Of a DNA stretch of 64,000 nucleotides, positions 40,648-62,989 are shown piece by piece. Source of the stretch: Serripes groenlandicus (lineage: Eukaryota; Mollusca; Bivalvia; Cardiida; Cardiidae). Made by a program: the position numbers and the translations under genes. The notes beneath the pieces are model-generated. The model saw only the letters and a list, made by a program, of their open reading frames with translations, did not search any database and was not told the origin of the DNA. Position 1 is the first letter of the stretch; the number at the start of each line of letters is the position of its first letter. The stretch covers positions 53,067,219 to 53,131,218 of the forward strand of contig JASEVX010000013.1 in assembly GCA_031761405.1 (NCBI GenBank), read 5' to 3'.

Positions 40648-41067
40648 TAATACTCTTGAAGGTAGAGTACACACCATTCTAAATGGTGTTACCATACTAC
40701 TGTTGAAGGCAAACTAATCACCATTATGAGTGATGTAAGTATAATACTGTAGAAAGCAAAGTAGCCACCATTATGATTGATGTAAGTTTAATACTGTAGA
40801 AAGCAGAGTAGACACCATTATGAGTGGTGTAATTATAATACTGTAGAAAGCAGAGTAGACACCATTCTGATTGGTGAAATTTAATAATATTGCAGGCAGA
40901 GAAACCCCCATTCTGAGTGGTGTTACCATAATACTGCAGGGGGCAGATTATTCACCATTCTGAGTGATGTATGTATAATACTGTTGAAGGTAGAGTAAAC
41001 ACCATTCTGAGTAGTGTAACCATTATACTGTTGAAGGAGTAAACACCGTTCTGATTAATGTAAGTAT
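40648..41067 (+). repeat. 47-bp hairpin minisatellite, block 4 (9 units)
   Basis: It begins taatactcttgaaggtagag and matches the last 530 bp of block 5 unit by unit (gtgttaccatactactgttg; cagggggcag variant; the shortened final unit gttgaaggagtaaacac; then ttctgattaatgtaagtat). It is interrupted by the LTR retrotransposon at 41067/41068. The continuation (attactcttgatattagtag) is found after the 3' LTR at 50038. Confidence 0.88.
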
Positions 41068-41110
41068 TGTAGTGCGATCGGCTCGAGTCGGGTATGTCCG
41101 GAATACCGAG

Positions 41111-41118
41111 TGACGTCA
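41111..41118 (+). promoter_or_regulatory. Palindromic CRE (TGACGTCA) in the 5' LTR
   Basis: A perfect 8-bp CREB/ATF consensus lies 43 bp into the LTR, where U3 enhancers are expected. It is duplicated in the 3' LTR at 49859-49866. Occupancy is inferred from sequence only. Confidence 0.5.
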
Positions 41119-41270
41119 CCGCGAGATGCGCGCGTTGCGGGGGAGGGCACCTCGGGTCATTCTTACACTTGGACGCGAAGCCGAAAGTCGACCGTACAAA
41201 TACTACAACTAACTAGAAGAAATAAGGTACTTATCCCTAACACATTTAACTGCTTATTTATATACGCTAC

Positions 41271-41279
41271 CAGGTAAGC
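41271..41279 (+). promoter_or_regulatory. Consensus splice donor CAG|GTAAGC in the LTR
   Basis: The exon would end at 41273 and the intron start at 41274. The match to the metazoan donor consensus is near-perfect. Candidate partners are the acceptors at 41595 (gag leader) and 47722 (ORF3). Confidence 0.55.
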
Positions 41280-41285
41280 ACTTTA

Positions 41286-41718
41286 TTGGTGGCAGCGGTG
41301 TTTAACGTCCCATTGCAAACGTGTCATAGCCGAAATTAGCTGTGAGACGGGAAAGAAAACATTATCGACGTGGGGAAAAGTGTCCGCCATTATAGACTGG
41401 CGCCATTGCTGGTTTTTCGGATATCATTTTCAGGCCTACTTTTTGCCAGTACTCTGTCATTGTTTCTGTTTGTAGCCTATTGTTGATTCAGGCTGGCTAT
41501 AAGAAGTCAGAGGGAAAGAGGAAAATTTGGTTTTGATTTGATTCTGAGAAATCTGAGAATATTAATATATATTTTTTTTTTTTTTTTTTTTTTAGTTTTG
41601 TTGGCTTTTGAAAAAAACTTTGAAATAAATTCCAGAGTTTTTTTTTATTGTGATACTCAGTAGTCAGTGCTCATTGTGTCATTCCTATTTTTGTGGTTGA
41701 TAATTCATACAATACACA
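41286..41718 (+). other. ATG-free gag leader with strong polypyrimidine acceptor
   Basis: The 433 nt between the LTR and the gag ATG contain no ATG on the plus strand, suitable for scanning initiation. A T22 run (41572-41593) followed directly by AG (41594-41595) is a strong acceptor candidate for splicing from the LTR donor. Such splicing would remove the PBS region from a gag mRNA. Confidence 0.55.
41287..41300 (+). other. Primer binding site
   Basis: TGGTGGCAGCGGTG starts two bases after the 5' LTR. The leading TGG would pair with the CCA end of a tRNA primer. I cannot name the tRNA without the host tRNA set. Confidence 0.7.
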
Positions 41719-43314
41719 ATGTCATACCCCACTGAAGAGGAAACTGATATTAATATCTTGATCAACTCCTGTGATGCTAGAGATCTGCGTGTTATCAGAG
41801 GTATTGGTACTGAGCTAGCATCACGCATTATTAAACTGAGGGAGGCGGGTGTTGATATTACACGCCCTATGTTGGAAGCCATTCTGCGGGAGGATATACC
41901 CGAGGATATGGCAGCTATGATTGATTTTAGACCCCGCCATCTCAAGACAAATCAGAGAATGGTGGGGACCCAGGTTGACAACGGCATAGATTCAGCAAAC
42001 TCAGGGGGTGAGGCTGGCTTATCAGTCACCCATCATCTGACAATGAATAAATTGGGAGAAAGAGATATGGAAAGAGCCATATCAGACTTGCCAGGTGTCC
42101 CAGGGTATGATTTGCCTGATCATTCACCAGAGGCACAAATTGTGAAAATGGAAGCAACTTTGAACCAGGTCTTACGACATGTAGGTGACATGAAGCAGGC
42201 AGATAACAAACATGATAGGCATGTTTGTAGCGAGTCTGACTCTGGGAGCAAGGCGGCTGGATGGAATGTAACGCAAGCCAAAAAGAAGAATCACTCAAGT
42301 CAAGGGGTGCGCGTGCCGCATAGGGCACATGTACCTAGACATATGACTGAGTATGAGAGTTCGAGTGAGGAAGACGAGAGTTATACACAGCGTGTTAGGA
42401 GACGAAAGCACTATGGGGCAGTACAAAAGGCATGTATTTTAGCCGTCCAAAGGCTGCCGAAGACTCTTACCTATAATGGTAAGACTAATTGGCATGCATT
42501 TCAATTAAAATTTCATAGGTATGCTGAGGCCAGTGAATGGACAGAAATAGATTGCAAAGATTGCCTTATACATTGTCTGACAGATCAGGCATTGTCGTAT
42601 GGGGCAATGTTGCTGAGGCGTGACCCTAACATGTCGTATCGTAAAATGATGCGTAAACTGGACCAACGATTTGGAGCTGAAGAGTTACCGGCAGCAGCGC
42701 AGGCTAAATTCTACCTAGCCTTACAAACAAAGGTAGAATCTCTTGAAGAATGGGCAGATAGGGTGCAGTCACTTGCAACTGAGGCTTTCCGGCAACTTCC
42801 GGAAAAGTACTCTAATGAGCAAGCGATTGCTAGATTTTGTCAGGGCCTTCTGGATGCAGAGGCAGGCCATGCCGCATTCATGCAGTCATTTTTAACAATT
42901 GAGGATGCAATAAATGAAGTTTGTTTGTTTCAACATTCTAAACAAGCAATGAAGCACCGTGTAAAGAAGAGTCTGTCATCAAGTGCTACAGATTATGAGG
43001 ACAGTGTGCAAGTCAGTGCAGTACAAAATAAGGATAGATCAACACAATCTGTTGAATCTATGATCGCACAGTTACAACTGGAAATGGCGGATGTAAAAGA
43101 GAAATTAAAGAGTAGAAATGAATCACAGGGGAGATGGAAAGGTAATGGGCTAACTAGAAAACCTAGGGGTAAATGTTGGATTTGTGATAAAGAAGGTCAT
43201 TTTTGTAGAGAATGCCCTTTGAAGAAGTCTTTAAACGACAATGGGTCGGCAACAGGGGCCGAATCCCGACCCTACAATCCAGATACGAGGGCTCCCCAGG
43301 GGAAAACCAATTAA
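41719..43314 (+). CDS. gag: Gag: HhH-like N terminus, retrotransposon Gag core, CCHC zinc knuckle
   Basis: This 531-codon frame starts at the first ATG after the LTR. Residues 22-60 read like a helix-hairpin-helix: DLRVIRGIGTELASRIIKLR followed by a second helix pair, with the G-I-G hairpin typical of non-specific DNA-binding HhH motifs of the ComEA type. A charged, low-complexity linker follows (about 75-240, with an acidic-basic patch at 212-230). The Gag core spans about 245-410 (YNGKTNWHAFQLKF; FYLALQTKVESLEEWADRVQ). A single CCHC knuckle, C-x2-C-x4-H-x4-C, spans residues 486-499. A coiled-coil-like stretch at 440-466 may aid assembly. The protein should form the cytoplasmic RNA-packaging particle. 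An N-terminal HhH in Gag is unusual. Its 3' end overlaps pol by 103 nt in the -1 frame. Confidence 0.93.
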   Translation: MSYPTEEETDINILINSCDARDLRVIRGIGTELASRIIKLREAGVDITRPMLEAILREDIPEDMAAMIDFRPRHLKTNQRMVGTQVDNGIDSANSGGEAGLSVTHHLTMNKLGERDMERAISDLPGVPGYDLPDHSPEAQIVKMEATLNQVLRHVGDMKQADNKHDRHVCSESDSGSKAAGWNVTQAKKKNHSSQGVRVPHRAHVPRHMTEYESSSEEDESYTQRVRRRKHYGAVQKACILAVQRLPKTLTYNGKTNWHAFQLKFHRYAEASEWTEIDCKDCLIHCLTDQALSYGAMLLRRDPNMSYRKMMRKLDQRFGAEELPAAAQAKFYLALQTKVESLEEWADRVQSLATEAFRQLPEKYSNEQAIARFCQGLLDAEAGHAAFMQSFLTIEDAINEVCLFQHSKQAMKHRVKKSLSSSATDYEDSVQVSAVQNKDRSTQSVESMIAQLQLEMADVKEKLKSRNESQGRWKGNGLTRKPRGKCWICDKEGHFCRECPLKKSLNDNGSATGAESRPYNPDTRAPQGKTN

Positions 43315-46300
43315 ATGTTTTCAAAGCAAAAAATCCCGTTAGCCCTTCAGGGAAAAGGGAGAATAAATCTCCAGAAAAAGTGATTTCTACATCAAAAGAT
43401 GTGTCTGAAGGCAAAAATGTCGATCTGCCAGTCAAAGTGTGTATGTTGAGATCAGCCTCAACATTCACTATTCCTGTACTTATCGGGGAACATCAAGTTG
43501 AGGCAGTAGTCGACTCTGCAGCAGAAGTGACGATTGTTTCGGATCGGGTTTTCTCAAAATTGAGAAAGCCACCTCCGAAATTACGTAATGTCAAACTAGA
43601 TACTGCTGGGCGTCAGCTTTCAATGATGGGGTTTGTTGCAGGTCCGATTAAGTTAAAGATTGGTAGTTCATATTACAACGGTCCAATTTATGTAGCTCCT
43701 ATTGATCAGGACATGTTGTTTGGAGTTGACCTCCTTACCAAGGGGGCTGCTGTATTGAACATGGGAAATGGGACTTTGACGTACGAGGGTGAGGAGATAA
43801 CCATGAGTATGGGGTATGGAGAGGGGAATCCACAGGTCGCTCGGGTGACAGTTGCATACAGGCGTATTGTACCGCCACAGTCGGTGGTACGTATGAAATG
43901 CAAAATGAATGTCTCTCTTCCAGATTATTTCATTGAACCATGTGAAAACCTTAAAGTTTTTGGTCCCCGAGTAGTAAGGCATGCAGGAACTGATCCTTTC
44001 ATGTGCATTGTGAATACATCAGACAGGTATCTCACAATGAAAAAGGGCCGTGAGGTTGGGAGAGCATATCCGGTCGGGGAGTTTATCCCAGAAAATGAGG
44101 AAAGTTATAGTGTTCAAGAGGTTCGGGAGTGTTTAACAGAAACACAAAATACTGTTCCAGAGCATTTAGAAGACACGTTCAAGAAGTCAGCAGAACACTT
44201 AACGGAAGAGCACAAAAAGCACCTAGCGCATATGCTGAACTGCTATGAAGATGTGTTTGCGAAAGATGAGTTTGATCTCGGGACATTCACTGAGATTGAA
44301 CACACGATAGACACAGGGGACGCTAAGCCTATCAAACAAAGGCTTAGGCGTACACCAGCTTGTTTTGCGGGTGAAGAAGAGACGCATTTAAAGAAAATGT
44401 TAAAGGCAGGGGTGATTCAAGAATCAATCTCTGATTGGGCTTCCTCTCCTGTTCTAATACGAAAGCGGGATGGAAATGTCAGATGGTGTATTGATTACCG
44501 CGCTGTCAACAATGTTACTATCAAAGATGTCTTCCCATTGCCGTTGGTTGACGATTGCCTAGATACATTGTCAGGCAATGTTTGGTTTTCAAAACTGGAT
44601 GCCAATTCAGCATATTGGCAGGTCACCGTCAAAGAAGAAGACAGGCGCAAAACAGCATTCCACACTAAGTATGGATTGTTTGAGCATGTAAAGATGGGCT
44701 TCGGACTCTGCAATGCTCCCGCAACATACTCTAGGGTGATGAACCTCGTGATGAGAGGTTTGTGTTGGAAAACAGTCCTGGCATTCCTAGATGACATTTT
44801 AGTCATGGGACAGGACTTCGAATCTCACCTTCATAACCTTGGTGAGACATTTAAGCGTTTTCGGCAGCATGGCCTAAAGCTTAAGCCAAAGAAATGTGTG
44901 TTTTTCCAAAGAGAGGTAGAATTCCTTGGTAGAAAAGTTAGCAGAGACTCACTGGCGATGTCAGAAGCAGATACTGAAACTGTGTCAGGTTGGCCCGTAC
45001 CAAATTGCTCCAAAGATGTAGAGCGCTTTATGGGCCTGGCAAATTACCATAGGAGTTTCGTGAAAGATTTCTCGCTGCGCTCAGCACCTCTGTATGCAGC
45101 AGTAGGAAAAAACAATTTTAAGTGGGAAAAGGAGCAGCAGCAGGCTTTTGATTACCTGAAACAGGCTCTCACGCACCCACCAGTTTTGGCATTACCAAGG
45201 AAGGAAGGAGATTTCATTCTCGATACTGATGCATCAGATCTGGCCATAGGGGCAGAGCTTTTGCAGGTTCAAGAAGGGGAAGAAAAGGTTGTTGCATATG
45301 GGAGCTATTCTTTAACTAAAGAACAGCGGAGATATTGCACAACTAGGAAAGAACTCTTGGCCATTGTGAGGTTCACAAGGCAATTCAGGCACTACTTGCT
45401 TGGAAGAGCGTTTACTGTTCGTACCGACCATTCAAGCTTGACATGGTTATTGAATTTTCGTGAGCCACAGGGGCAATTAGTAAGGTGGATGGAGGAGTTA
45501 TCTCAGTATAACATGAAACTTATACATAGACCTGGCAAAAAGCATGACAATGCTGATGCCTTGTCTAGAAAACCAGCGCCAGAGGGGCAGTGCCAAATGT
45601 ACACAGCTGGTATTCCACTGAGAGATTTACCTTGTGGTGGTTGCATTTACTGCGAGAGAGCAGACAGCCGATGGGGAGCTTTTACCCGGGAAGTTGATGA
45701 TGCGGTTCCATTGACAGCGCTGGGGTCAGCAGGGATCATATGCGGTAGCTCCGCTAGGGATCTGGCTGCCGGGGGCGACTGTCATGTGGGGGAGCCGATC
45801 GCCTCACGGTTGGGTGGTTATAGGGCACAGGGTGATAAGGGTGATCAGACAGCGGAGGCATATGATGCCAGGGCTGATATCTCCAGTGTATCACGGAGTG
45901 ATATAGGCCACATGTCTGGTTCGACACGAAGTTCAAAAATAAGCCAGGTTCAATGTGAAAATGGCAAGACGGTGGACAGTGGAAGTTCAAGCACTAAGTT
46001 AGACTGTAGCCAAGGAGTTCAACATGGGGCCAAGGGAGCACCAAGGGTGCAAAACCTTTTGCAGTGGGACCAGGGCGGTCCAGAGGATGTATACATTGAA
46101 ATTGTGGCATCAGATGGAGACTACACTGTCAAGGTATGTGGGGTAGGGGTAAAAGCCCCTGAAGCATGTTTGTGTTGGGGTATTAACATGGAGGATGTTA
46201 AAGCAGCACAAAGAAATGATAAAGATCTCAAGTTCATTTTTGAATCTATAAATGGGTCAACTAGCCCCACTGAGAAGGATTTGTTTCTGTCAAGTCCATG

Positions 46301-47681
46301 TGCTAAAGCATATTGGCTGGACAAGGAGAGTTTTTTGCTGATTGGTGAGTTACTGTTTCACCAACGAGAAAACGATTCGGAAAAAGATCTCGTAATACCG
46401 CATGACTTCAAAACCGAAGCTATCCGGTTGAATCATGATTTGCCCTCAGCGGGTCATCAGGGTGTAGCAAGGACAAAGGCGCGAGTGAAAGAAAGATTTT
46501 TTTGGAGGGGAATGGGGGTCGATATTACAAACTATATCGCTACCTGTGCAACTTGTAGTAAAAACAAGAAGACAAGTCAGTATGGTCACACCCCAATGCA
46601 AGTGTATCAAGCAAGTGCTCCTATGGAACGAGTTCACCTAGATTTCCTGGGGCCATTACCTAAGACCCCCAGGGACAATGTGTACATTCTGATGATGGTG
46701 GACCAATTCACCAAGTGGGTTGAGTGTGTACCATTACCATCCCAGACAGCAGAGGTTACGGCCAAAGCAGCAGTGGATAACTTCTTTTCCCGTTTTGGCT
46801 ACCCTTTCCAAGTATTTACGGACCAAGGTAGAAATTTTGAGTCAAAACTCTTCACTGCAATGTGTGAAGTGTTAAAGATCCATAAAGCTAGGACAACGCC
46901 ATATCGGCCATCGGCGAATGGTCAAGTTGAGCGCTTTAACCGCACTGTGATGGATGCTGTGAGATGCTATATCGGGGATTCACAGGAACAGTGGGATCTG
47001 CACCTTCAACAAATTGCAGGGGCAATAAGGAGTGCAGTAAATAGAAGCACCGGGTTCTCGCCCAACAAATTGATGCTAGGTAGAGAAGTGAACTCACCAG
47101 CATATTTAATGTTCCCAAGTAGAGCTGCTCAACCTATAACAACAGAGGAATATGTGGCTACTTTGATGAAAAATATTCAAGCAGCGTACAATGCGGCTAG
47201 GGATACATTGAAAACTTCATTGAAGAGAATGAAGCGGGACTATGATGTACGGATTTTAGAGAATTCATACAAGTCGGGGGATCTGGTATATCTACTCGAC
47301 TCTGCATCAAAGAAGGGGCAATGTAAGAAATTATCCCCTCCATGGAAAGGCCCTGCTGTGGTTGTTCAAAAGATATCGGCGTCCTTATACAGGGTAAAAC
47401 TTCGAAAGTCGATGTTCGTGACTAACCATGACCGATTGAAAAGGTGTCGAGACAGAATTGTCCCGGCATGGATAGAAAAGTGGTTAGTAAACCCAACTCA
47501 TGAGAATGAGGTGGGTGGAAAAGATAAAATCACTTACTGCAAATGTAGAAAACCATGGCAGGGCAGATTTATGATACAGTGTGATGGATGCGATGAATGG
47601 TTCCATGGCTCATGCGTCAATATCACGGCATCGGATGCACTGGATATAGACAAATTCTGGTGTGATATCTGCCGCAATTAA
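43212..47681 (+). CDS. pol: Pol: protease, RT, RNase H, integrase and C-terminal PHD finger
   Basis: The frame is open from 43212 (1,489 codons), but Pol is probably made as Gag-Pol by frameshifting at 43230-43236. Numbering here is from the ATG at 43212. Protease: D101 in VVDSAAEVT (DSA in place of the common DSG/DTG). RT: D463 in KLDANSAYWQ and FLDD with D527/D528. RNase H: D673, E714, D739, D782 (ending NADALSRKP), then a C-x2-C-x2-C cluster (808-814) and a linker of about 200 residues. Integrase: HHCC at H1075, H1082, C1112, C1115, and catalytic D1144, D1204, E1240 (DD35E). A GPY/F-like segment lies at about 1375-1385. The end is a PHD finger (C1443, C1445, C1457, C1460, H1465, C1468, C1484, C1487) with candidate methyl-lysine cage residues Y1442, M1454, W1463. 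All catalytic residues are present. Confidence 0.95.
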   Translation: MPFEEVFKRQWVGNRGRIPTLQSRYEGSPGENQLNVFKAKNPVSPSGKRENKSPEKVISTSKDVSEGKNVDLPVKVCMLRSASTFTIPVLIGEHQVEAVVDSAAEVTIVSDRVFSKLRKPPPKLRNVKLDTAGRQLSMMGFVAGPIKLKIGSSYYNGPIYVAPIDQDMLFGVDLLTKGAAVLNMGNGTLTYEGEEITMSMGYGEGNPQVARVTVAYRRIVPPQSVVRMKCKMNVSLPDYFIEPCENLKVFGPRVVRHAGTDPFMCIVNTSDRYLTMKKGREVGRAYPVGEFIPENEESYSVQEVRECLTETQNTVPEHLEDTFKKSAEHLTEEHKKHLAHMLNCYEDVFAKDEFDLGTFTEIEHTIDTGDAKPIKQRLRRTPACFAGEEETHLKKMLKAGVIQESISDWASSPVLIRKRDGNVRWCIDYRAVNNVTIKDVFPLPLVDDCLDTLSGNVWFSKLDANSAYWQVTVKEEDRRKTAFHTKYGLFEHVKMGFGLCNAPATYSRVMNLVMRGLCWKTVLAFLDDILVMGQDFESHLHNLGETFKRFRQHGLKLKPKKCVFFQREVEFLGRKVSRDSLAMSEADTETVSGWPVPNCSKDVERFMGLANYHRSFVKDFSLRSAPLYAAVGKNNFKWEKEQQQAFDYLKQALTHPPVLALPRKEGDFILDTDASDLAIGAELLQVQEGEEKVVAYGSYSLTKEQRRYCTTRKELLAIVRFTRQFRHYLLGRAFTVRTDHSSLTWLLNFREPQGQLVRWMEELSQYNMKLIHRPGKKHDNADALSRKPAPEGQCQMYTAGIPLRDLPCGGCIYCERADSRWGAFTREVDDAVPLTALGSAGIICGSSARDLAAGGDCHVGEPIASRLGGYRAQGDKGDQTAEAYDARADISSVSRSDIGHMSGSTRSSKISQVQCENGKTVDSGSSSTKLDCSQGVQHGAKGAPRVQNLLQWDQGGPEDVYIEIVASDGDYTVKVCGVGVKAPEACLCWGINMEDVKAAQRNDKDLKFIFESINGSTSPTEKDLFLSSPCAKAYWLDKESFLLIGELLFHQRENDSEKDLVIPHDFKTEAIRLNHDLPSAGHQGVARTKARVKERFFWRGMGVDITNYIATCATCSKNKKTSQYGHTPMQVYQASAPMERVHLDFLGPLPKTPRDNVYILMMVDQFTKWVECVPLPSQTAEVTAKAAVDNFFSRFGYPFQVFTDQGRNFESKLFTAMCEVLKIHKARTTPYRPSANGQVERFNRTVMDAVRCYIGDSQEQWDLHLQQIAGAIRSAVNRSTGFSPNKLMLGREVNSPAYLMFPSRAAQPITTEEYVATLMKNIQAAYNAARDTLKTSLKRMKRDYDVRILENSYKSGDLVYLLDSASKKGQCKKLSPPWKGPAVVVQKISASLYRVKLRKSMFVTNHDRLKRCRDRIVPAWIEKWLVNPTHENEVGGKDKITYCKCRKPWQGRFMIQCDGCDEWFHGSCVNITASDALDIDKFWCDICRN
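43230..43272 (+). promoter_or_regulatory. -1 ribosomal frameshift signal: T TTA AAC slip site, 6-nt spacer and stem-loop
   Basis: The heptamer TTTAAAC at 43230-43236 lies in the gag frame exactly as X XXY YYZ. After a 6-nt spacer, GGGTCGG (43243-43249) pairs perfectly with CCGACCC (43266-43272) across a 16-nt loop. The loop contains GGGG, which could pair with a downstream CCCC near 43294 as a pseudoknot. Slippage by -1 enters the pol frame at 43236. The pairing and phase are seen directly; the frameshifting activity is inferred. Confidence 0.85.
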
Positions 47682-47707
47682 CAGGTATGATAGACGGCTG
47701 TTATCGG

Positions 47708-47722
47708 TTTTTTTGTTTTCAG
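47708..47722 (+). promoter_or_regulatory. Splice acceptor before ORF3
   Basis: ttttttttgttttcag ends at 47722, 27 nt after an ATG (47687) and 6 nt before the ATG at 47729. It is a strong polypyrimidine-AG acceptor lying in the gap just after the pol stop. It could receive the LTR donor at 41274 and give a subgenomic ORF3 mRNA whose first ATG is 47729. Confidence 0.6.
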
Positions 47723-47728
47723 ACAACT

Positions 47729-49675
47729 ATGACTTCCACCAGAGAGATCCGCCAGGCCACTAAGGACGGGCATCTATTAGCGTCCAGAGACCTGGTAAAG
47801 ACAATTCTCTTGGGTGAACAGTTGGCGGAAAAACAGATCCCCTTACTTTTGGGACAAGTAAAGATTGCCAAGGACCAGGGACAGAGACGATGGCTACAGT
47901 TGGTTGCTGGGGATGCGGATCAGATGCAGTTCCATGGCCAACAGTGGATCGACGAGAAGATCACAAAGGTCTCTCGCCGATCCCGGCCATCGAGCTCCCA
48001 GCAAGCCAGCCAGTCTAGAGACATCCGGCTCATGGAGGGGAAGACGATCGATAGGGTTGTGGTGGATATGGGCTGTGGTCAGGAATCCAATATAGAGGAA
48101 ATAACCTCACAGATCGACGCAGTCCTGAATGAGGCAATTGTAGATACGGCTATGGAGGTGGACAGAGCACCAGCCACAGTGAAGGACACGGAGAAAGCCA
48201 TGGATAGAGAGGAAAGAGGGACATCTGACATCCGGAAAGAGTCGAGAGACAGGAGGCATGTTCATCACTCGGGGGATACGAATAGACGCCAGAACAGGAG
48301 TGATAGGGCTATTCAGAAACCGTCTAACAAGGGTAGAAGACGATCATGGGAAGATAGGTCTCCGGTTGGACAACCAGTCCAGAAGAAGAGGTTCGAGGAA
48401 CCATGGATGGCAAGGAAGGGGGTGGACACATCGCTTTGCCCTATTCCTGGCTGTGGGGAAAAAGTTTCGTGGTCACATGCGTTCAGTGTGCACCTCCCGG
48501 GAGTCCTGGATAACCGACGCGGACCCACTACAGAGATCACCAGATCGAGATTGAACCTGCTACTCCTGGTAACCAACCAAATAGTGAGTTGTCTGGATAC
48601 AAGGAAGCTGACAAATTTCATTAATGATCTGCAGATGGTCACAAAAGGCTGTCTGCAGTACTCCAGGCAATTCGTCAGGGCAGCAGAGGATCTCTGTAGT
48701 GTGATGGGCAATGACAAGCCAGATGTCTTCACGGTTGACCCCATGAACTCGCCAGCCCTCCTCATACACTGGCGCATCTTCTTGGTGGTGATGGGATGCC
48801 TGGACAGACGGACGCAGGCAGAGTTACGGGATAACTTTCCCGCTATCTCTGTACCACTGCAGGACAGACCAAGGGCCTTTGATAGCCATTTCCACCTGGA
48901 CCGCCTCCGGAACAGGCTTGGAGGTCATCTCACCTATAAAGAGGCCCTTAAAGTCGTGGCACCAGAGACCGGGGATGAGGTTTGGGTGACTGGGGGAATT
49001 GCAGTCTTTTGGGATCCCCCCAGTTATCCAGACCAAGATGAAGTTGCCACGCTTGTTTCGGAGGGGGTAGGGGTGGCTATCGGAATCCACCCAAAGCTGG
49101 CAAAGAATGTCGATGAGCAGGACTGGACCAAGTTCCAGGAATGTCTACGCCTGGAAGGAGTTGTCGCCCTTGGAGAAGTGGGTTTGGATCATCATAAGAC
49201 GGATCCAGCCACTTGGGACATCCAGCATACCGTTTTGGATCGCGCAGTAGAGTGTCTGACGCCAGAAAAAGTGCTGGTGCTTCATAGCCGCGATGACAAG
49301 ACGGAGATGTTGGAACTCCTTTACCACCTGAAAGGAGTTGTGCCAAGGGAGCAGCCTATTCACCTGCACTGCTTCAGTGGTAGTGAAGCCACAAGGGACG
49401 CATGGATCCGAGCGTTCTCCAACATCTGCTTTGGGTTTACTGGGTTGGTCGCGAGTTTCCGGGATAACCAGGCTGAAGCTCTACGGAGCTTGGACGCAAA
49501 GAGGCTTCTCATAGAAACGGATGCCCCTTTCTTCGGCTTTGGAAAGCAGGCTTCAACCCCGCCACAAGTAGGCTCTACCGCGCGTGTGATCAGCCATGTG
49601 CGGCACGAAACCTGGGAAGAGCTTCTGCGTATTACAGAGGAGAATGCGCGGAGGCTGTATGGGATGCCTGTATAG
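47729..49675 (+). CDS. ORF3: Zn-finger-like and TatD-family metal-dependent nuclease, 648 aa
   Basis: I chose the ATG at 47729 because it is the first after the acceptor; the frame is open from an ATG at 47687 (662 codons). Residues 1-230 have no recognised domain, with basic NLS-like stretches near 201-222. A C-x4-C-x7-H-x4-H motif follows at 237-255. Residues about 384-645 are a TatD-type TIM-barrel metallohydrolase with every ligand in order: H387 and H389 (DSHFHLD), E483 (ALGEVGLD), H519 (VLHSRDD), H547 (LHCFSGS) and D598 (ETDAPF). TatD/TATDN enzymes are Mg-dependent DNases/exonucleases, and human TATDN2 has been linked to R-loop processing (recalled). A cargo role in processing cDNA, RNA-DNA hybrids or integration intermediates is inference. 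It shows no envelope features. The frame differs from pol (offset +2). Confidence 0.9.
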   Translation: MTSTREIRQATKDGHLLASRDLVKTILLGEQLAEKQIPLLLGQVKIAKDQGQRRWLQLVAGDADQMQFHGQQWIDEKITKVSRRSRPSSSQQASQSRDIRLMEGKTIDRVVVDMGCGQESNIEEITSQIDAVLNEAIVDTAMEVDRAPATVKDTEKAMDREERGTSDIRKESRDRRHVHHSGDTNRRQNRSDRAIQKPSNKGRRRSWEDRSPVGQPVQKKRFEEPWMARKGVDTSLCPIPGCGEKVSWSHAFSVHLPGVLDNRRGPTTEITRSRLNLLLLVTNQIVSCLDTRKLTNFINDLQMVTKGCLQYSRQFVRAAEDLCSVMGNDKPDVFTVDPMNSPALLIHWRIFLVVMGCLDRRTQAELRDNFPAISVPLQDRPRAFDSHFHLDRLRNRLGGHLTYKEALKVVAPETGDEVWVTGGIAVFWDPPSYPDQDEVATLVSEGVGVAIGIHPKLAKNVDEQDWTKFQECLRLEGVVALGEVGLDHHKTDPATWDIQHTVLDRAVECLTPEKVLVLHSRDDKTEMLELLYHLKGVVPREQPIHLHCFSGSEATRDAWIRAFSNICFGFTGLVASFRDNQAEALRSLDAKRLLIETDAPFFGFGKQASTPPQVGSTARVISHVRHETWEELLRITEENARRLYGMPV

Positions 49676-49696
49676 AGGCAGGAGTATAAGGGGGTG

Positions 49697-49768
49697 TCAC
49701 CCACACTAGGGTGATCATCCGCCTTCCAAAGGGATGCCATCGAGTTGGTGTCACCCACAATAGGGTGA
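49697..49768 (+). repeat. Twin RNA-hairpin motif in the 3' untranslated region
   Basis: TCACCC-ACACTA-GGGTGA (49697-49714) and TCACCC-ACAATA-GGGTGA (49751-49768) lie 54 nt apart, inside longer direct repeats (gtgtcacccaca, tagggtgatca). The stems are identical and perfect while the loop differs by one base. They sit between the ORF3 stop and the polypurine tract. Confidence 0.7.
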
Positions 49769-49794
49769 TCACCTGGAGCGACGTGGTATCTGCC

Positions 49795-49815
49795 AAAAGA
49801 GAAAATGGGGAAGAG
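49795..49815 (+). other. Polypurine tract
   Basis: AAAAGAGAAAATGGGGAAGA plus a final G, with one pyrimidine in 21, directly abuts the 3' LTR. This is the expected primer for plus-strand DNA synthesis. Confidence 0.85.
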
Positions 49816-50033
49816 TGTAGTGCGATCGGCTCGAGTCGGGTATGTCCGGAATACCGAGTGACGTCACCGCGAGATGCGCGCGTTGCGGGGGAGGGCACCT
49901 CGGGTCATTCTTACACTTGGACGCGAAGCCGAAAGTCGACCGTACAAATACTACAACTAACTAGAAGAAATAAGGTACTTATCCCTAACACATTTAACTG
50001 CTTATTTATATACGCTACCAGGTAAGCACTTTA
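49816..50033 (+). repeat. 3' LTR, 218 bp
   Basis: Identical by reading to the 5' LTR, including the CRE (49859-49866) and the CAGGTAAGC donor (50019-50027). The donor could let read-through transcripts splice into flanking DNA. It is followed by GTAT and the resumed host repeat. Confidence 0.95.
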
Positions 50034-50049
50034 GTATATTACTCTTGAT

Positions 50050-60525: not shown

Positions 60526-60810
60526 GACATCCATATATGACATTTCGAACAGCCAAACATGATGTTAATCTCATGTAGATAACACGCCCACTGTTTCGTC
60601 TTAGTATTTGTTAGAACTTTATGTAAAACAGATAATTTTTAAATGCTAATTACTTTAATTTTTAGGCTCTGTTTGTTGTAAATGCAAGTTGTGGCAAAGA
60701 TGTATTCATACATCTGCACTTCTTCAATATAATATATAATTTGACCTAAAACTAAGTTTGACATTCCAATATAGGTATATGCAACACATAATGTTTAAAT
60801 GTATGATTTC

Positions 60811-60824
60811 GATATTTATTACAG
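60811..60824 (+). promoter_or_regulatory. Candidate 3' splice site upstream of the Mab-21/cGAS-like ORF
   Basis: gatatttattacag ends 11 nt before the preferred ATG at 60836. It fits a 5'UTR intron acceptor. The frame continues upstream to a TTG at 60758, but this is not needed for the domain. Confidence 0.45.
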
Positions 60825-60835
60825 ATAGACGAGAC

Positions 60836-62989
60836 ATGAACGATGCCAATGAAGAATTGTCTAAACGTCTACATGAAGTACTTGATGTGATAGGCGCATC
60901 AGAGTACACCAGAGAAAAGTGTTGGGAGTGTGCTATGTTAATTGAAATAACAAAAACGTTTAAAAACCTTAATTATTCAAAACCTTCCAACAACTTATCA
61001 TACTACCAAGTTGGGAGTAGATTTGAAGGAACAACTACACCCGATTTCAAATCTGATTTGGATTTAATTTTTTGTAACGACAACATTCCTGTGGTAGAGA
61101 ATTTGTTCGAATCTAAACAACAGGGATTTTCATATCTTATTTTAAAGGATGAAGACACCAAACCTGGATATGTTCGTCTTCAGATTATTAAAGATAAATG
61201 TCCGCTTACAGTTGGAATGTTTGATATAACAGATAGCTGCTTTATCGATACCAGCTCTATCGATAGTAATGGAAGAATATGTGCTAAATATTCCCAAATT
61301 GATTATGGACCAAAGTCCTCTCGTAATGGTCCAGCGGACACGCTTCCGGGTGGAAACGGTACGAGCCAACTTGATGGCGTATATGCTTTAAGGTGTCGAC
61401 AGATACCGAGGTCAGGCAATTCCTGGTTACACAGGATACGGAAATACGGCTGGCCATCACAGAAACAACTTAAGGCAATGGGATCATATGGTTGTTTCTT
61501 TGTTGGTGTTGGACATCCTCATAGTGACAACACGTCTATCGAATGGAGAATGTCCTTTTCACTTCAAGAGCGTGACCTCATGTCAAGTCTAAACGAAACG
61601 CAACACAAGTGTTATATTCTGCTCAAGATGATAAAGAAAGATGTTATAGAACCAAAGGTCGGTGAATCTATCACATCATACCATTGTAAAACAAGTCTGT
61701 TTTATACAATCGAAAATTCACATAGACAATTTTGGGCTAATGATAAGCTGATACTGTGTGTACAGCAGTGTCTTAAGCGTCTATTTATTTGGGTGAAGGC
61801 AAAATATTGTCCAAATTATTTCATTCCAGAAGAGAATATGTTTGATAAGCTCAGCGTAATGACTCTGGAAAAAGTAGAGTATGTTTTAAACGACGAAATA
61901 GAGAGTGATATCAAGTTTTCATATTCACTTAATTGTGATTATGTTGGTGAACTTCTGAAATCTAAATTGCGTGGTGATGAACTGGTATATAGTCTGGCTA
62001 ATATGAGTACCTCGTTTCAACCAAAATATTCAGTATGCTATTGTATTACAGAATACATCTATCAATTAAGGAAGAAATCCATTCGACTCATGTCTATGCT
62101 TTCTTATACAAATACAGGTTATATGGTTGCGATGATGCAACTTCTGATATATCTACAACATACGAACCATGTCACAGAACATACTACGAGAGACGTAAGA
62201 ATGGCATTTGACTCTATAATTCCACTTATACTATTACAATACAAACAGTGTATGTATGTCCAGTACTTGTCACAAGGAAAATTGTCCGACCTGCGTTCTA
62301 TGACAGTTACAAATATAATCCCAGAAATTAGTGACTATGACCTCATTTCGTCAAAGTTATCTTTAGCATCTTTATATATTCAATTTGGACAGTATCAAGA
62401 GAAGTGTAAGCGCATTCTAGTTTCATGTGAAAAAGAAATAGAACCATTTGTGATATCTATGTGTAGCTGCGAAGAGAGGAAACATCGTGTTAATCGTGCT
62501 CTCGCTAAAAAAATGAGATTTACTGACATGTCAAGCAAATATTTCAGACAACATTGCACCACAGGCTGTATGGTATTTCATCAATATCAAGTTAGTCTTG
62601 TCCATGCAGCCCTTCAATACGAGATGTTCCGTAATGTGTACACACAACCTGGAGCTGGATATGAAATGATACACGACTACTGGTTAAACTGGATAACGGT
62701 AGATTCACAAATATATTTGTATTTTCTGCAGTATTTACTTTTTTCTAAATTAAATAAATGGACAGAAGTATTAACGGCTCTGCAGAAACTAGCACGTGTT
62801 CTACAGACGGACTTTAATCTTGGGCACAGAGAGACAGGGTTTAACCTGATTGGGTGGATATGTTTACAGAAAAAAGTATTACCAACAGCTTGGAGATACT
62901 TGTGTTTATCATGGAAAATCAGACCTTTTACAAATGCAGCTAAATGGCACATGCTAATTTTACTGCGTGAAAGTATAAAGGGAAATTAA
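60836..62989 (+). CDS. Mab-21 / cGAS-like nucleotidyltransferase (candidate cGAS-like receptor), 717 aa
   Basis: A single open exon from ATG 60836 to TAA 62987-62989. Residues about 15-230 are a Mab-21-type nucleotidyltransferase fold. The G-S motif (G60, S61 in YYQVGSRFEGTTTPDFKSD) is followed by D74 and D76 (DLDLIF). A likely third acidic residue is D180 in QLDGVYALRC, matching the position of the third catalytic Asp in human cGAS. Then come the family blocks GWPSQKQLKAMGSYGCFFVG and VGHPHS. Residues 235-345 are the helical Mab-21 C lobe (IEWRMSFSLQ; SYHCKTSLFYTIEN; CPNYFIPEEN). Residues 350-717 form a long helical extension without a recognised domain. The cGAS Zn-ribbon is absent. Family members sense nucleic acids and make cyclic dinucleotides for STING, or are inactive relatives; bivalves have large expansions (recalled). 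Product and ligand are unknown. Confidence 0.88.
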   Translation: MNDANEELSKRLHEVLDVIGASEYTREKCWECAMLIEITKTFKNLNYSKPSNNLSYYQVGSRFEGTTTPDFKSDLDLIFCNDNIPVVENLFESKQQGFSYLILKDEDTKPGYVRLQIIKDKCPLTVGMFDITDSCFIDTSSIDSNGRICAKYSQIDYGPKSSRNGPADTLPGGNGTSQLDGVYALRCRQIPRSGNSWLHRIRKYGWPSQKQLKAMGSYGCFFVGVGHPHSDNTSIEWRMSFSLQERDLMSSLNETQHKCYILLKMIKKDVIEPKVGESITSYHCKTSLFYTIENSHRQFWANDKLILCVQQCLKRLFIWVKAKYCPNYFIPEENMFDKLSVMTLEKVEYVLNDEIESDIKFSYSLNCDYVGELLKSKLRGDELVYSLANMSTSFQPKYSVCYCITEYIYQLRKKSIRLMSMLSYTNTGYMVAMMQLLIYLQHTNHVTEHTTRDVRMAFDSIIPLILLQYKQCMYVQYLSQGKLSDLRSMTVTNIIPEISDYDLISSKLSLASLYIQFGQYQEKCKRILVSCEKEIEPFVISMCSCEERKHRVNRALAKKMRFTDMSSKYFRQHCTTGCMVFHQYQVSLVHAALQYEMFRNVYTQPGAGYEMIHDYWLNWITVDSQIYLYFLQYLLFSKLNKWTEVLTALQKLARVLQTDFNLGHRETGFNLIGWICLQKKVLPTAWRYLCLSWKIRPFTNAAKWHMLILLRESIKGN

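Follow-up and report, generated by a model that had tools for sequence, protein, structure and literature searches.

A predicted TatD nuclease gene recurs as the third gene of a Ty3/gypsy-type retrotransposon group in Serripes groenlandicus

What is a gene for a TatD-type nuclease doing inside a retrotransposon? The question is raised by a stretch of 64,000 nucleotides (nt) from the bivalve Serripes groenlandicus (contig JASEVX010000013.1, positions 53,067,219 to 53,131,218; hereafter the window, numbered from its first letter). One long terminal repeat (LTR) retrotransposon was found in it, at 41064-50037, with gag, pol, a third gene (open reading frame 3, ORF3) and a polypurine tract between two LTRs. 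An initial annotation, made from the letters alone, took ORF3 for an intact TatD-family nuclease. We consider it probable that ORF3 is a conserved third gene of a Ty3/gypsy-type group in which Pol ends in a PHD finger, and that it encodes a TatD enzyme, which is likely expressed from a spliced messenger RNA (mRNA) of the env type and whose predicted substrates, as the element copies or inserts itself, are RNA-DNA hybrids or the 3′ ends of nucleic acids. The substrate class within this reading is drawn by analogy and is perhaps right, though we would sooner expect it to be wrong.

By its Pol order (protease, reverse transcriptase, RNase H, integrase) and its LTR ends, the element is a Ty3/gypsy-type LTR retrotransposon with a PHD finger closing Pol. 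The LTRs have TG...TA ends and show zero differences from each other, and a 4-bp target duplication, GTAT, lies on both sides. A 47-bp tandem array makes up the 5′ flank, stops at 41065 and resumes 3′ of the element from 50589; joined without the element, the flanks resemble an array unit spanning the junction, as judged by eye. Target duplications in the three other testable copies were exact in two (ATCT in L004/L045, TTAA in L018) and imperfect in one (TAAG/TAAT in L002/L043). Assignment to Troyka was rejected, as the accessible part of PMC12440569 gives Troyka CG...CG ends and a 3-bp duplication. The Pfam matches of Pol included no chromodomain of the Chromovirus kind, the PHD finger standing in its place. 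The start of pol overlaps the end of gag in a different frame. ORF3 was said to be part of the mobile unit because it lies between pol and the polypurine tract within identical LTRs, and this was borne out both by the coordinates and by its recurrence at the same place in related elements.

In the 1.76 gigabases of the same genome we found at least 83 ORF3 matches (67 of 773 candidates scored), twelve of which, the window's included, were 96-100% identical over nearly the whole length. Among the 42 stretches fetched, 36 had ORF3 immediately downstream of the PHD end of Pol; a few of the stretches overlap (L019/L041, L021/L029, L022/L028). The remaining six (L020-L023, L026, L038) are copies with deletions or rearrangements, or stretches that start too far downstream. 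Three sets could be told apart among the fetched copies: group A, which is young, subfamily B, which is related to it, and older relics. A search with the final 260 residues of Pol gave 147 matches, and in four divergent lineages (69, 60, 52 and 54% identity over these residues) the stretch behind Pol held a third gene in every case. TatD was in view in three of them; in the fourth it begins 53 nt past the fetched stretch. Approached from the nuclease side, with 150 of the 151 TatD matches found (150 of 303 candidates scored), 101 of the 150 listed had a related Pol end 1.1-3.2 kb upstream in the same orientation, and within a lineage the same distances recur (e.g. 1200, 1780, 2010, 1575 and 2474 nt). 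The controls, Pol on the opposite strand within 6 kb and Pol downstream on the same strand, both gave zero. Conversely, a listed TatD lay behind 104 of the 147 Pol-end matches: 26 of the 42 with at least 75% identity, 15 of the 19 with 64-74%, 20 of the 30 with 57-63% and 43 of the 56 with less than 57%. Family copies lacking ORF3 at this place had been named in advance as evidence against a standing gene, and the counts from both sides do not point that way. The suggestion that some TatD predictions are transposon genes and not host paralogues holds for this genome among the matches listed.

Some apparent derivatives of the group were also seen. Six matches of 342 nt, equal in score, span half of TatD and have no Pol upstream (C1074:11985289, C1037:34520, C224:54858341, C1296:83417647, C1192:15277 and C113:59564378); they are perhaps a repeated deletion derivative. 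Two further stretches (L018 155-3084 and L027 6-2859) hold an LTR element that lacks gag and almost all of pol and has retained ORF3. The former is flanked by TTAA on either side, and since the latter shares its 3′ flank the two probably represent one insertion. A tRNA-Thr gene (L018 499-574) lies between the 5′ LTR and the PHD remnant.

The ORF3 product is, from sequence and model, a predicted TatD-type DNA- or RNA-cutting enzyme with a complete metal site. Its start was placed at ATG 47729 and not in the longer frame from 47687, because related copies carry one-base indels in the T-tract just upstream. The protein consists of an N-terminal helical domain, a disordered stretch, a zinc-finger-like motif and the TatD domain. 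The match to PF01026 covered the whole model (E value 1.1e-40; 140.1 bits against a cut-off of 27), and all six TatD metal ligands (H387, H389, E483, H519, H547, D598) were present at exactly the residues originally claimed, counted from ATG 47729. In a protein alignment built from 32 of the 34 relatives recovered by protein search (P0033 and P0034 left out), and numbered from 47687, H401, H403 and E497 were conserved in 33 of 33 rows, H533 in 32, and H561 and D612 in 31 each, the last with two gaps. In the zinc-finger-like motif both cysteines were found in 30 of 33 rows (three gaps), the first histidine in 31 and the last in all 33. An AlphaFold model gave a TatD fold, its barrel mostly above 90 in predicted local distance difference test (pLDDT) score, and its closest structures were TatD nucleases, with 14-28% identity to the solved TatDs listed. 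Pfam returned nothing consistent for the N-terminal and helical linker domains, and fold comparison covered little beyond residues 389-662. By hydropathy, and with no dedicated predictor, the highest 19-residue mean was 1.41 and the N-terminal one 0.70. On this measure the protein has no strongly hydrophobic segment, and nothing resembling the signal peptide and transmembrane anchor of an envelope was found; it is therefore hardly an envelope and would be a soluble accessory enzyme. Among predicted viral structures the only match with an E value below 0.001 was a protein of the giant virus Yasminevirus (BFVD A0A5K0U911).

Selection on ORF3 was estimated as the ratio of nonsynonymous to synonymous change (dN/dS) by pairwise Nei-Gojobori counts on blast pieces, with the window as the one shared reference, over 18 loci and 13 pooled young copies. 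Comparison of subfamilies A and B shows strong purifying selection on the TatD domain, near the level of reverse transcriptase. Against nine subfamily-B loci (L019, L025 and L031-L037, of which L025 and L031 look like near-duplicates) its dN/dS was 0.10-0.15 at a synonymous divergence of 0.60-0.89, and that of the finger and linker 0.10-0.13. The same loci gave 0.07-0.22 for reverse transcriptase (six of nine measurable) and 0.04-0.22 for integrase. Among further loci the TatD value was 0.14 in L013, 0.16 in L017, 0.20 in L018, 0.24 in L027 and 0.23 in L038, and the pooled young copies gave 0.23 for TatD and 0.21 for integrase. In the older relics L030, L039, L040 and L042 it rose to 0.28-0.45, and that of Pol parts to 0.20-0.45, as expected after decay. 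The other outcome that the initial annotation had named as adverse, evolution of ORF3 without purifying selection, was thus not encountered in TatD.

Retroviruses express env from a spliced mRNA, and the env mRNA of errantiviruses is spliced as well. Splice-site predictions make it likely that ORF3 is expressed in the same manner. Scored with a consensus matrix, the donor in the 5′ LTR, equal with its copy in the 3′ LTR, was the top of 515 GT sites in the element, and the acceptor in front of ORF3 was second of 725 AG sites. The donor GT was retained in 27 of 28 LTR ends (26 loci), and the acceptor AG in 34 of 36 loci (missing in L027 and L042). In subfamily B and the four other lineages, a pyrimidine tract with an AG likewise occurs no more than 10 nt from the ORF3 ATG, though the sequences are not alike. 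These sites ranked 1 of 632 AG sites in subfamily B, and 1 of 248, 1 of 181, 2 of 169 and 4 of 251 in the stretches of the four lineages. Splicing from 41273 to 47722 would remove gag and pol and place ORF3 at the front of the mRNA. The strongest acceptor match in the element is a T-run ending in AG in the gag leader (41574-41595), and the gag mRNA may also be spliced.

Relatives were found well beyond this species. The named ones among the 34 from the protein search include molluscs (Pecten, Argopecten, Pinctada, Ruditapes, Haliotis, Elysia) and sea urchins (Strongylocentrotus, Diadema); a profile search listed 45, with bacterial TatDs among them. A Pol search gave 220 relatives, and most of the 120 listed matched the PHD model. 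The gene model P0145, from the sea star Acanthaster, joins integrase, part of the PHD finger, the zinc-finger-like motif and TatD in that order in one protein. Using 112 of the 120 listed Pol clusters (those from single contigs) and 39 single-contig ORF3-like clusters, we found four ORF3-like proteins that pair with a Pol protein from the same source on source DNA pieces exactly equal in size, where 0.049 were expected. A fifth equal-size pair (P0162/P0084) was treated as chance, as its sources differ. Alignments of ORF3 and Pol against genome-contig and viral-contig collections confirmed no relative, so that the evidence from other species rests on proteins and same-size source pairs. In a TatD tree of 47 rows (five incomplete rows left out), the six Pol-linked rows fell into three supported subclades of one 31-row clade, which indicates that linkage to Pol is spread through that clade. 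A Mantel test on six Pol-TatD pairs gave r = 0.86, with 15 of 720 permutations as high, and leans on one close pair; with looser columns r was 0.76, with 31 of 720 as high.

Unusual domain combinations occurred among these proteins. P0134, a Pol of the PHD group, has an RNA 2′-phosphotransferase domain (Tpt1/KptA, PF01885) between the integrase end and the PHD finger. P0160, a long-branched row near the ORF3 family in the tree, combines PF08719, which we take to be NADAR, with a zinc-finger-like motif and TatD. Six animal-retrotransposon-like proteins (P0007, P0043, P0066, P0071, P0107 and P0143) are filed as bacterial (four in Thiodiazotropha bins, one in Sedimenticola and one in Desulfobacterales) and are probably host DNA in symbiont or environmental assemblies.

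Several observations weigh against the preferred reading of ORF3 as a conserved third gene that encodes a nuclease and is expressed by splicing. Forty-three of the 147 Pol-end matches were not followed by a listed TatD. Fragments are among them, and the TatD candidates scored were 150 of 303, so these 43 were counted neither as losses nor as carriers, and true losses are possible. Likewise, 49 of the 150 listed TatD matches lacked an upstream Pol match; as the six-frame search works exon by exon, the 150 may also include too few of the host TatD genes that have introns. The donor is missing in the 3′ LTR of L003, and its conservation was scored in LTRs alignable to that of the window. The nearest outside Pol proteins, P0035 and P0036, had no ORF3 partner from an equal-size piece, which may only reflect contig ends. 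Constraint is weaker on the N-terminal part of ORF3 (dN/dS 0.37-0.43 in the comparison with subfamily B), the finger and linker reached 0.68 in the pooled young copies, and the comparisons are not independent because the window and mostly one A-B split are common to them. P0004, representing a cluster of 182 sequences, has lost two ligands and one finger histidine.

That last cluster would suit a nucleic-acid chaperone, whose fold binds nucleic acid or metal without cutting. The six ligands are retained in nearly all other members having those columns, and we regard this explanation as very improbable. Still harder to believe is a passenger, that is, a host TatD gene picked up once by one element and functionless there. 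Third genes can be passengers, and the raised TatD ratios of the relics could be read in this way, but TatD follows Pol even in lineages with as little as 52% identity, the A-B comparison shows strong purifying selection, and relatives with near-invariant ligands occur in molluscs and echinoderms. The main rival is counter-defence, in which the nuclease acts on excess complementary DNA (cDNA), small RNA or sensor ligands, averts host silencing or DNA sensing, and is dispensable for copying. Predicted splicing would express ORF3 apart from Gag-Pol, as befits an accessory protein, and the N-terminal part evolves faster, as host-facing proteins often do. TatD enzymes act on single-stranded DNA and RNA, according to the accessible part of PMC12709183, which is also compatible with this role. 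Conservation of the finger and of the TatD core would sooner suit a fixed substrate, and the support is not direct; we hold counter-defence to be unlikely, if the best of the alternatives.

The same part of PMC12709183 describes E. coli TatD as a 3′-5′ exonuclease on single-stranded DNA and RNA, human TATDN1 and TATDN3 as apurinic/apyrimidinic (AP) endonucleases, and human TATDN2 as an RNase that resolves R-loops. A repair role, in which the TatD domain would cut AP sites in cDNA that is damaged or deaminated, would fit such activities; neither the model nor the sequence tells AP cleavage from exonuclease action or the cutting of hybrids, and we think this role improbable. Under the preferred reading, of a nuclease serving copying or insertion, the zinc finger and basic linker would hold the protein on nucleic acid, and the TatD barrel would act on ends or, where reverse transcription leaves hybrids, on their RNA strand. 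R-loops at the insertion target site would be an alternative substrate. The best PDB matches of the Pol PHD finger were PHF2, CXXC1/CFP1 and PHF8, whose PHD fingers read trimethylated lysine 4 of histone H3 (H3K4me3). By this sequence likeness alone, the finger of the integrase may bring the complex to its target by reading methylated histone H3. A bolder proposal is possible but doubtful: an old group of animal LTR retrotransposons with TatD as standard third gene, in which PHD would read H3K4-methylated promoters and spliced ORF3 would clear R-loops there or hybrids on new cDNA, and to which most TatD-annotated genes in such genomes would belong.

ORF3 shares its fold and the set and order of its ligands with the TatD/TATDN metallonucleases (PF01026). 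Unlike them, it adds an N-terminal domain, a disordered linker, a zinc-finger-like motif and a helical domain, and is encoded by a retrotransposon. Some Ngaro and DIRS elements carry an accessory hydrolase; this is likewise an extra enzyme unrelated to replication proper, though a different enzyme in a different class of element. The capture of env by Ty3/gypsy elements (errantiviruses) is mentioned in the accessible part of PMC12440569. As in those elements, the third gene here lies between pol and the polypurine tract and has a predicted spliced mRNA, whereas its product is a predicted soluble nuclease with no strongly hydrophobic segment. The same source places a chromodomain at the Pol C-terminus of chromoviruses. 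A chromatin-reader domain thus ends Pol in both groups, a PHD finger here and not a chromodomain.

Among the open papers listed, which for the broadest searches were part of the hits, none was seen to report TatD in an LTR retrotransposon, going by titles, abstract openings and selected passages; most subscription journals and Repbase were beyond this scope, and the association may be known there. In one paper that mentions a PHD finger together with a gypsy integrase, the PHD protein is encoded by a host gene close by. The result adds a nuclease, in the env position and apparently with env expression logic, to the short list of genes stably acquired by LTR retrotransposons. TatD enzymes have few established roles in animals, and this group offers a ready system in which to ask how such an enzyme benefits a reverse-transcribing element. 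About two-thirds of the TatD matches listed in this genome lie behind a retrotransposon Pol, a warning for annotation; hence, for mollusc and echinoderm genomes, tallies of TatD/TATDN2-like genes should be verified, as should any conclusions drawn from them. For instance, the accessible part of PMC6962438 lists a 'putative deoxyribonuclease TATDN2' among the non-Hox genes in the Hox cluster of the giant squid; the legend concerned mentions a pogo-derived gene as well. By analogy with the present result, this TATDN2 may be a retroelement gene.

Table 1. Features of the retrotransposon, in window positions.
Feature	Position	Strand	Remarks
Target-site duplication GTAT, 5′ copy	41064..41067	.	
5′ LTR	41068..41285	+	218 nt, same as 3′ LTR
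Predicted splice donor CAG/GTAAGC	41271..41279	+	exon end 41273; consensus matrix
Probable primer-binding site	41286..41298	+	TTGGTGGCAGCGG, immediately 3′ of LTR
gag	41719..43314	+	PNMA-like Gag; helix-hairpin-helix and CCHC matches under cut-off
pol	43212..47681	+	protease, reverse transcriptase, RNase H, integrase, SH3-like part, PHD finger
PHD finger, Pol C-terminus	47538..47672	+	PF00628
Predicted 3′ splice acceptor	47698..47722	+	6 nt upstream of ORF3 ATG
ORF3	47729..49675	+	648 amino acids, zinc-finger-like/TatD protein
N-terminal helical domain of ORF3	47729..47962	+	pLDDT about 95 over most; alignment-conserved
Zinc-finger-like motif C-x4-C-x7-H-x4-H	48437..48493	+	
TatD nuclease domain	48878..49663	+	
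Hairpin-forming 25-nt repeat, two copies in 3′ untranslated region	49693..49771	+	49693-49717, 49747-49771
Polypurine tract	49795..49815	+	AAAAGAGAAAATGGGGAAGAG, purine-rich, abuts 3′ LTR
3′ LTR	49816..50033	+	218 nt, same as 5′ LTR
Target-site duplication GTAT, 3′ copy	50034..50037	.	

The two 25-nt repeats in the 3′ untranslated region form near-identical hairpins, and the fold z-score for 49676-49815 was -4.0. Elsewhere in the window, at 60758-62989, we noted a frame of 743 amino acids with Mab-21 domains, a family that includes cGAS-like proteins.
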